NCBI GenBank assembly: GCA_015272195.1
Contig: JACYMC010000119.1
Span: 1-36,943, forward strand
Length of the DNA: 36,943 nt
Direction of reading: 5' to 3'
From: Candidatus Sericytochromatia bacterium
GTDB taxonomy: Bacteria; Cyanobacteriota; Sericytochromatia; UBA7694
Under the pieces are notes generated by a model that made no database searches, was not told where the DNA came from, and worked only from the letters and a program-made list of their open reading frames with translations. Positions 2,705 to 36,943 of the stretch are shown piece by piece. The first letter of the stretch is position 1. Each line of letters opens with the position of its first letter. A program made the position numbers and the translations under genes.

Positions 2705-3237
2705 TGCGCACCGCCTTTTACCCTGTGCTGGGCGCGGTGCTGTTGACCGCCCTGCTTGGCCTGCCGGGCCAGCAGGCGCTGGCCCAGTCAGAACCTGCGC
2801 CTGCTGCAGAGAGTGCCGTCTCAGCTTACAGCGATCTGGCCCGCTTTCTGAATACAGACCAGGCCGCCCAGTTGCTCGACAGCGAGCCCCTGCGCAGCCA
2901 GCTGCAGGCCCTGCTCAGCATCCAGGCCCCGCTGTTTCTGAGCAGCCGGGCGCTGGCCGAACCCGTTACCCAGGTCAAGCAGGGCTATATTCTCAGTCCG
3001 GCGCGCAGTGCTGATGGTGAGGTCGCCTCGCTGGTGCTGCTGGATATTGAGCGCGAGATGCTGGCGGTGATTGTTTGCCAGCCGCAGCAGAAGACCTATG
3101 CTCTCAGCCTGCGCCTGGGCCAGGCTGATGATATGGCGGCTGTGGAGTTCAGCCAGTATGCCCTCAACTGGGTGCTGGGCGAGCTGGGGCTGTTACATGA
3201 ATCCCAGCTGCCCGGTGCGGACCTGCTGGCCCCCTGA
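2704..3237 (+). CDS. Secreted protein of unknown function
   Basis: 177 residues. It has a clear Sec signal peptide: MRTAF, a hydrophobic core (VLGAVLLTALLGL) and a likely cleavage site ALA-QS near residue 27. The mature part is mixed alpha/beta. It includes an aliphatic stretch (GEVASLVLLDIEREMLAVIVCQPQ) that looks like a compact beta sheet, and a single cysteine. I do not recognise a family. The start ATG overlaps the rimO stop (TGATG), so the two are probably translationally coupled. No functional link to S12 modification is evident. It ends 7 bp before the convergent MscS gene, with no obvious terminator between them. Confidence 0.7.
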   Translation: MRTAFYPVLGAVLLTALLGLPGQQALAQSEPAPAAESAVSAYSDLARFLNTDQAAQLLDSEPLRSQLQALLSIQAPLFLSSRALAEPVTQVKQGYILSPARSADGEVASLVLLDIEREMLAVIVCQPQQKTYALSLRLGQADDMAAVEFSQYALNWVLGELGLLHESQLPGADLLAP

Positions 3238-34519: not shown

Positions 34520-35696
34520 TTATTCGTTCCACCAGTTCACCAGGCTGTTCCAGCCTTCGCTGACAGTTTCTCTGGCGGTATTAATGCCCTGGCCGACGGT
34601 GCGGCCCACGGTGCTGTTGCGGACGTAGTCGACCCCTTCACTGACGGTTTCAGTCACATCGTCAGCAAATTCGCTGGCCGCATCAATTCCCCGGCCCACG
34701 GTGCGGCCCACGGTGCTGTTGCGGACGTAGTCGACCCCTTCACTGACGGTTTCAACCACATCGTCAGCAAATTCGCTGGCCGCATCGATGCCCCGGCCCA
34801 CGGTCTGACCGACGGTGCTGTTGCGCACATAGTCCACACCCTGGCCGATCGCTTCTGAAGCGGCGGCATAGCCGCGCTCGCCGATTTCATAGCCGACGAT
34901 ACCGGCTGTTTCAATGGCCTGCTCAAAAGAGGCCGCTGAGTTGCCAGAAAAGGGAATAAACTCAGCACCCGGTACCATCGCAATGGTGGGTAGCATCTCA
35001 GGCGCATTCAGCACCACATCGGTTAAGCCCGCCTCTGTATAGGCGCTGGGATGGGAATCAAAAGCAAACTCACGTAACTCTGCTTCACTCATCTCACCCA
35101 GGGTGCCTTGCTCATAACGCTCAACCAGAAAATCTGTCAGCTCACGCTGTAAAATGCGACCGGTGTTTTCGATCCAGCCACGGGTGACGTCGTTTTCCAT
35201 CAGGGTGTCATGGTTAATAAAGGCCCGGTTGTACTCTTTGCCATAGGCAATAGGGTAGCCTTCTTCGCCCCAGGGGCCGAGGTAGTTGTCCAGCTGCTCA
35301 TAAAATTCATAGGTGGTAGCGGCAGCCGGGCTATCAGACATATAGCCTTCCAAAAAATCCCGTAAGGCCTGGGCACCCTCTGGTGTCGGTGGTGCGTTGA
35401 GATCAGGTGGCTGAATACTTTGCTGCCGGGCCCGTGCCACAGGATCCGGCGTGAGGTCGGTATTCTCGCGGGGTGCCGCCGGTGTGCCACCAGGCGGAAA
35501 GCCCACAGACAGGGGCTCGATATCGGCGTCAGCATGAGACTGCCCACTGTAAGCGCTTTGTAAGGGCGCTGCAGGCGCCTGAGGCGGCGATGCCGGGGGG
35601 GCCTCTGGACTGGCGGGCGATGGGTTCGAAACGGGGGGGGGTAATCAACGGGGTGTAGGGGGTGATGGGCTCAGGGCCGGGCGTTAATCTGGGCAT
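34520..35696 (-). CDS. Pro-rich/34-residue-repeat protein, frameshifted at a C9 tract
   Basis: The best gene model starts at ATG 35696 (AAAAGG 9 nt upstream) and reads M-P-R-L-T-P-G-P-E-P-I-T-P-Y-T-P-L-I-T-P. It then enters nine C's (G9 at 35633-35641) and goes out of frame, ending at a TGA shortly after. With eight C's the frame joins the downstream one and gives about 390 residues. The intact downstream frame only offers a GTG at 35506 without ribosome-binding site. The protein has a Pro/Ala-rich N-terminus, a globular middle (EGYMSDSPAAATTYEFYEQLDNYL) and three near-identical 34-residue C-terminal repeats containing VRNSTVGRTVGRGIDAA. No cysteine and no signal peptide. The function is unknown. 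Confidence 0.65.
34596..34847 (-). repeat. 102-bp in-frame tandem repeats (two full, one partial)
   Basis: Units start at 34596, 34698 and 34800, each opening with ACGGT and followed by a shared ACGGTGCTGTTGCG block. The first two are almost identical over 102 bp; the third is partial and more diverged. Each encodes 34 residues of the amphipathic pattern VDYVRNSTVG-x-TVG-x-GI. Confidence 0.85.
35633..35641. repeat. Homopolymer tract G9 (C9 on the coding strand)
   Basis: Nine consecutive G's lie inside the 5' part of a coding region. Changing the number to eight restores one long frame, so the tract is a candidate contingency (slipped-strand) site or a sequencing error. Confidence 0.8.
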
Positions 35697-35836
35697 TTAA
35701 CAAAACCTTTTCTTTCAGGATGATGCGTGTGGTCAACAGGTTAAAACACGCCCACAAATGGCTGATGTATTTCATATACCCACCTGCAGTGCAAAACATG
35801 CAGCTGGCAAGCAAATCTTTCGGGATAGCTTCGTGT

Positions 35837-36743
35837 TTAAGTGCTGAAAGCTTCTGCCAGAACCAGAGAGAAGCGATCTACTTTGCCGTGATCCTCATAG
35901 GTCCAGCAAGCCGAAAGGACAGCCTGAATAAAGCCCCAGCCCTTCAGGATTTCAGCGTCAATCTGCAAGACTTCGCTGAAAAGATTGATCCGGTGCTGCA
36001 GTCTGGCCGGCAGCTGATTGCAGCGGCGCACGCGCTGGTCAGGATTGAGCAGATAGCTGCCCACTTCATAGGCAGCATCTCCCCAGAGCCCCTTGGGATC
36101 AATGGCCAGAAAACGAGGGGTAGGCTCAGCCTGGCTTAAGATATTGCCGTGGTGCAGATCGCCGTGCAGCAGCACCGCTGGCGTGCTGCCCAGCAGCTCC
36201 TGCAGCTGGGTCTGTGCCCGCAACAACAGGCTGGGGGGCAGGGGCTGGTCCTCTTGCTGCTGTAAGCGTGTCAGGCTTTGGGTCCACTGCTTCAGCGGCG
36301 TCAGTTCAGGCGGAGCCTGCTCCAGCCGGTGTGTATTTTGTCAGAGCTGTCGCATAAGCTGAGCGGCGATCCGGGTTTCCTGTGCTTCATCTTCCGGTTG
36401 GTTCAGGGGCGTACCCGGCAGACAGGCTTCCAGAAGCAGGGCCGCCTGATCGCCATCCCAGGCCAGCAGCTGGGCCGCACCCTGACCAGCATAATGCTGC
36501 AGGGCGCAGGACTCTGCCAGCGCTTCAGGGTCCTGGTGGCAAAAGCTTGAGAATGGCCTGGCTGCCATCGTGCTGGCGGACCCACAGGACAGGATGATAA
36601 GACAGCTGCTCTGCCCAGCCCAGCAGCTCCAGCTGCCACTGTTTCAGACAGTGCTCAAGTTGCTGGGGCCAGCGGGCCAGCCAGTTGTCGGCCTGTGGGT
36701 AGCAGTCGCGCAGGTGCCGGGCCAGATCAGAAGGAATTTGCAC
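35837..36743 (-). pseudogene. Aminoglycoside/hydroxyurea phosphotransferase family (APH(6)/StrB-like) pseudogene
   Basis: Three pieces in order make one kinase of about 302 residues, the usual family length. From GTG 36743: M-Q-I-P-S-D-L ... SQAILKLLPP. After a one-base shift near 36530-36540: DPEALAESCALQHYAGQGAAQLLAWDGDQAALLLEACLPG to RQL. Then an in-frame TGA at 36341-36343 (probably once TGG), followed by QNTHRLEQAPPELTPLKQW to the end. The last piece holds the kinase catalytic loop LLHGDLHHGNIL and the metal site AIDPKGLWGDAAYEVG. Members phosphorylate streptomycin-like drugs or unknown sugars. As written no full-length product can be made. Removing one G of CCAGGACC would repair the shift. 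Confidence 0.82.
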
Positions 36744-36846
36744 GATGCAGGCGACGGTGCTGACGCTGTAAAAGTTCCCGCTTGAAGCCCTTACCAGGCT
36801 GCCTCTGTGTTTTTGTCAGGGCTCTCCAAAAGTCGTGAAAGGGCAT
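36727..36846 (-). CDS. Possible small basic protein (39 residues)
   Basis: An ATG at 36846 opens a 39-codon frame (M-P-F-H-D-F-W-R-A-L-T-K-T ... R-R-L-H-R-A-N-S-F) whose TGA lies 17 bp inside the start of the phosphotransferase pseudogene. It is rich in Arg, Lys and Gln. No ribosome-binding site is obvious and no family is recognised; it could be a chance frame. Confidence 0.2.
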   Translation of the reverse strand: MPFHDFWRALTKTQRQPGKGFKRELLQRQHRRLHRANSF

Positions 36847-36854
36847 AAAATAAA

Positions 36855-36881
36855 CCTCACCAGGTTAAAAACCTGATGAGG
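36855..36881. terminator. Hairpin near the right edge
   Basis: CCTCA-c-CAGGTT and AACCTG-a-TGAGG form an 11-bp stem with one mismatch and a 3-nt A loop. It may end a gene beyond the window or belong to a mobile-element end. The remaining 36882-36943 shows no clear gene. Confidence 0.4.
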
Positions 36882-36943
36882 ATTATATGAAATGCACCAC
36901 TGTACACCGCTTTTGAAGATTTGGGAAGGTATTCCCGAGTACC

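Follow-up and report, generated by a model that had tools for sequence, protein, structure and literature searches.

In Neisseria meningitidis, intragenic poly-C and poly-G contingency loci have been shown to vary between strains and within colonies and to be over-abundant (PMC5084427). Length-expanded tracts in this species are mainly tied to surface functions, and homopolymers of at least eight bases are predominantly variable in meningococci (PMC5084427). The locus compared here with these systems lies in a window that spans contig C2 (36,943 b) from end to end, in a draft genome, G000 (4.17 Mb, 273 contigs, 91% complete). Photosystem reaction-centre genes were found neither in this genome nor in 17 relatives of the same class; they are present in other classes of the phylum. 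This absence from the genome and its class relatives indicates a non-photosynthetic organism within the Cyanobacteriota. The following features of the window are relevant to the analysis.

34520 to 35506, minus strand: gene body, 328 amino acids from GTG, with an unnamed conserved domain at about residues 33 to 200 and C-terminal repeats
34568 to 34873, minus strand: 102-nt (34-aa) repeat in three tandem copies, two of which match the reference copy at 91% and 67% identity
35529 to 35696, minus strand: proline-rich open reading frame of 55 codons from ATG 35696, with its end out of step with the gene body
35595 to 35601, minus strand: second C run, C7 (G7 on the plus strand), within the same proline-rich segment as C9
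35633 to 35641, minus strand: C9 homopolymer (G9 on the plus strand), separating the two reading frames
35706 to 35709, minus strand: AAGG, 9 nt ahead of ATG 35696, a candidate ribosome-binding site; AAGGTTTT and the spacing are common to this site and the intact homologue of a related genome (G001)
35837 to 36743, minus strand: neighbouring gene for an APH_6_hur-type phosphotransferase, broken into three frames (36743-36525, 36568-36341 and 36340-35837)
36817 to 36943, no strand assigned: terminus of a multicopy insertion sequence, within which the contig ends

The C9 tract is the longest homopolymer of the window and its sole C/G run of at least eight bases. The N-terminal sequence of the proline-rich 55-codon frame is MPRLTPGPEPITPYTPLITPP...; this frame crosses the tract and ends at 35529. 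The frame of the gene body stays open upstream of GTG 35506 for 46 codons, to 35644, and its upstream limit is a TGA codon (35645-35647), 3 nt beyond the tract. The sequence confirmed that the nine C's put ATG 35696 out of frame with the 34520 gene, as stated in a preliminary description of this DNA, and the warning given there that such a tract is an error-prone site was upheld. Because the tract lies in a proline-coding stretch, C runs are expected at this position.

Whether the gene is broken at all depends on its start codon. The 34520 gene might be an ordinary gene translated from GTG 35506, with the C9 tract in an untranslated leader and nothing switched off. The conserved domain is complete when read from GTG 35506, and the N-termini of the homologues are variable, low-complexity sequence. 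In G000, Shine-Dalgarno matches are commonly weak: of 279 long frames, 177 have a match of 3 nt or less at their first ATG, so a missing Shine-Dalgarno sequence leaves room for a start at this codon. However, GTG 35506 is preceded by GAG only, its frame stays open above it to a point 3 nt past the tract, and about 32 residues precede the domain in the GTG form, compared to about 80 in the homologue. In the G001 homologue, AAGG precedes the initial ATG by as many bases as at ATG 35696, and at both starts the octamer AAGGTTTT is followed by 5 nt and then by the ATG. Among the first ATGs of long frames that were sampled, this arrangement occurred at 0 of the 279 others in G000 and at 1 of 202 in G001, although the comparison was made after the similarity had been noticed and is therefore suggestive rather than strong. 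Codon-usage scoring of the proline-rich leader did not distinguish a coding frame. Judged by these sequence features, ATG 35696 is probably the true start of the gene, which supports the choice of start codon in the preliminary description, and translation of an intact gene from GTG 35506 is rather unlikely. With ATG 35696 favoured, the gene as assembled appears broken.

The deduced protein consists of a low-complexity proline-rich N-terminus, the conserved domain (about residues 33 to 200 in the GTG form) and the three tandem 34-aa repeats. Its homologous central domain places it in an unnamed proline-rich/YGxxY family, which was present in 4 of the 18 genomes examined of this non-photosynthetic cyanobacterial class (the window gene and loci L010, L028 and L029). 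The G001 homologue, from another genus of the same taxonomic family, has 304 aa, is 50% identical (E 2e-67) and is intact from its ATG. The distant homologues in G007 (256 aa, profile E 5.3e-7) and G012 (224 aa, profile E 1.5e-5) are likewise intact. In all of these homologues a low-complexity N-terminus precedes the domain. Searches of Pfam, NCBIfam and the PDB revealed no family that explains the domain; matches to GPD_NAD_C_bact, Tim44 and perilipin were rejected as not credible because they are positioned on the low-complexity repeats. No relative of the protein emerged from two genome-contig scans or from one viral-contig scan, and when viral contigs were scanned for a 17-base sequence flanking the tract, two exact matches were obtained. 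The body keeps its coding bias, with 0.195 per codon in frame and negative values in the other two frames.

The preliminary description likened the gene to surface-protein genes. No signal peptide, lipobox or membrane segment was found in the body, in the N-terminal open reading frame or in the N-termini of the homologues, and the window protein has no Pfam or NCBIfam domain of a surface or secreted kind. The maximum 19-residue hydropathy was 1.07 for the body and 0.63 for the N-terminal open reading frame. Since no member of the family has a signal peptide or a membrane segment, and the window protein itself is devoid of a signal peptide or hydrophobic segment, the surface assignment is unsupported.

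We consider it somewhat better than an even chance that the tract is a chance proline-coding C run with a length off by one, as a consensus error or a neutral allele, and not a maintained switch. The C9 tract would have arisen by chance from CCC codons in the low-complexity proline-coding linker of a gene starting at ATG 35696. Its length in this single draft genome would be off by a frame-breaking amount, and the cause may be either a consensus error or a neutral allele produced by replication slippage. We infer such an error or neutral slip from what was observed, namely, the tract, the two frames, the tract-free intact homologues and other frame-breaking C runs. In favour of a chance slip, the homologues in G001, G007 and G012 are all intact, the next gene is also frame-broken, and C runs break frames where a switch makes little sense (C18 in a histidine-kinase HATPase_c domain and C13 in a hexapeptide-repeat enzyme). 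The other frame-breaking runs with an assigned locus are as follows.

Contig C134, locus L017 3046-3063: C18/G18 run within the HATPase_c domain of a histidine kinase; the contig ends 323 b away
Contig C206, locus L025 3028-3040: G13 (C13) run, with a hexapeptide-repeat transferase split into two frames
Contig C165, locus L021 2871-3601, tract at 3029-3038: C10/G10 run just after a lipoprotein signal peptide, with DUF6935 out of frame

Tracts longer than nine bases mostly break the frame. The C18 run splits the HATPase_c domain exactly at profile position 55, with positions 7 to 55 in the upstream frame and 55 to 90 in the downstream frame, and a C10 run on contig C174, near the 3' end of an NmrA-like gene, is accompanied by an apparent frame shift. 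Breaks inside catalytic cores look more like length noise than like designed switches. On contig C151, a short-chain dehydrogenase match ends about half way, near a C10 run (locus L020 408-417); the sequence beyond the run looks unrelated, and a mis-join is possible. The lipoprotein of contig C165 is the sole case with a classic switch layout and a better switch candidate than the C9 gene. Its signal peptide, with the lipobox LLGACA, is parted from the DUF6935 domain by the C10 run, and its orthologues in G001 and G004 are intact, tract-free lipoproteins.

Two observations argue against a chance C run with a length off by one: most coding C9 tracts keep the frame, and the contig end lies in a repeat and not plainly at low coverage. 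The seven other C9 tracts that are frame-keeping lie on contigs C1, C7, C16, C27, C56, C137 and C194, and the C6 to C8 runs sampled showed no convincing frame break. Since most coding C9 tracts read in frame, homopolymer errors at length nine are uncommon in this assembly, and an error is a possible cause rather than a proven one.

In the preliminary description, the tract had been read as a possible phase-variation device of the kind known from surface-protein genes. Slipped-strand mispairing at C9 would then reversibly switch the gene, and the assembly would have caught the OFF state. C9 is placed in the 5' portion of the gene, with ATG 35696 and its good ribosome-binding site on one side and the body on the other; such a slippable tract in an open reading frame or promoter marks contingency loci. 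As meningococcal homopolymers of at least eight bases are mostly variable (PMC5084427), nine C's are long enough to slip. The out-of-frame C10 just after the signal peptide of the C165 lipoprotein, in the same genome, is a further point in favour. However, contingency loci are also marked by a tract that is kept in homologues, and the N-terminal part of the G001 homologue is devoid of any C/G run of at least five bases. The window protein lacks an export signal, several tracts of a comparable kind are found in the cores of enzymes, and such tracts are not enriched in G000.

The abundance of such tracts was compared across genomes. G000 contains 17 C/G runs of at least nine bases in 4.17 Mb. 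The exact-9-type pattern gave 9 matches in G000 (2.2/Mb), 36 in G001 (6.3/Mb), 45 in G004 (6.9/Mb) and 14 in G002 (3.4/Mb); the fourth family member, G003, had 5 in 6.2 Mb, fewer than G000. Tract density in G000 is thus below that of three of the four family relatives, and the lower counts than in these relatives indicate that C9 is not an enriched motif in this genome. One of the 17 tracts is intergenic, and the remainder lie mostly within enzymes (HMG-CoA reductase, alpha-amylase, NAD-dependent epimerase, methyltransferase, PRK-type kinase, glyoxalase and histidine kinase), with one lipoprotein among the hosts. The over-abundance and surface linkage of contingency tracts were therefore not seen in G000. 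C/G runs of at least nine bases lie somewhat closer to the ends of contigs than would be expected (one-sided KS P = 0.03). Given a tract-free homologue, a protein with no export signal, no enrichment and disrupted enzyme cores, the phase-variation proposal for a surface protein is unsupported, and we regard an OFF-state switch at C9 as distinctly unlikely. We give a still lower probability to a reading in which a C tract reversibly switches a cytoplasmic protein with repeats in this non-photosynthetic cyanobacterial relative, with the C10 lipoprotein of contig C165 as a second locus. If such a switch were true, the range of contingency loci would widen to include a little-known class of non-photosynthetic Cyanobacteriota.

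The 34520 gene could also be a fixed pseudogene in a decaying region beside an insertion sequence, where it and the phosphotransferase gene have both lost their frames. The phosphotransferase gene is broken at two places, neither at a homopolymer of at least six bases, and its homologues in G003 and G004 are intact. The end of the insertion sequence lies about 75 nt beyond this gene, and the contig end is 1.3 kb from the C9 region. Against decay, the body of the 34520 gene is without a stop across 328 codons and has kept its coding bias, so any loss would be very recent. We consider a fixed pseudogene improbable, to nearly the same degree as an OFF-state switch.

Low coverage was rejected as the cause of the contig end because the end is the terminus of the insertion sequence. 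The same terminus recurs in at least 12 other contigs, located at their ends or close to them, and the copy on contig C81 adjoins the end of a DDE_Tnp_1_4 transposase. An HMM frameshift scan, which has low power for short arms, gave 8 candidates in 339 kb of G000 and 1 in 283 kb of G001. On inspection, most of the 8 candidates in G000 turned out to be gene junctions. The two clear frameshifts are in the phosphotransferase gene and in an MgtE gene on contig C7; both are less than 1 kb from the end of a contig, and no long homopolymer coincides with either. The MgtE-type gene (Pfam MgtE_N) has its clear frame break near the contig start, at about position 833, away from any homopolymer.

C-rich proline codons are slip-prone, and slippage of the ribosome or RNA polymerase on the C run could yield some full-length protein from the nine-C gene, but such recoding is hardly credible, as the overlapping-frame arrangement occurs in no homologue (G001, G007 and G012).

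A chance C run with a slipped length, which is the reading we prefer, calls for caution, because an isolated long run of C's in a draft genome is readily mistaken for phase variation. The annotation of the N-terminus of the 34520 gene should be treated as uncertain.

Compared with the N. meningitidis loci (PMC5084427), the window tract is alike in being a C/G homopolymer of at least eight bases in the 5' part of an open reading frame, where a one-base change switches the frame. It differs from them in that such tracts are not enriched here, the homologue is tract-free and the protein lacks an export signal. An error in homopolymer length, as occurs in draft assemblies, would resemble this locus in its one-base frame break at a long run of C's; the draft has 273 contigs and contains other frame-broken genes. 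A point of difference is that most C9 runs in this assembly keep the frame, which indicates a low rate of errors for runs of nine. By sequence, the window protein belongs to the unnamed family with a proline-rich N-terminus and a domain carrying the motifs YG-K-Y and FA-(S/T)HP-AY. In contrast to the rest of this family, only the window copy carries the C9 tract, has a broken frame and shows expansion of the 34-aa repeats.
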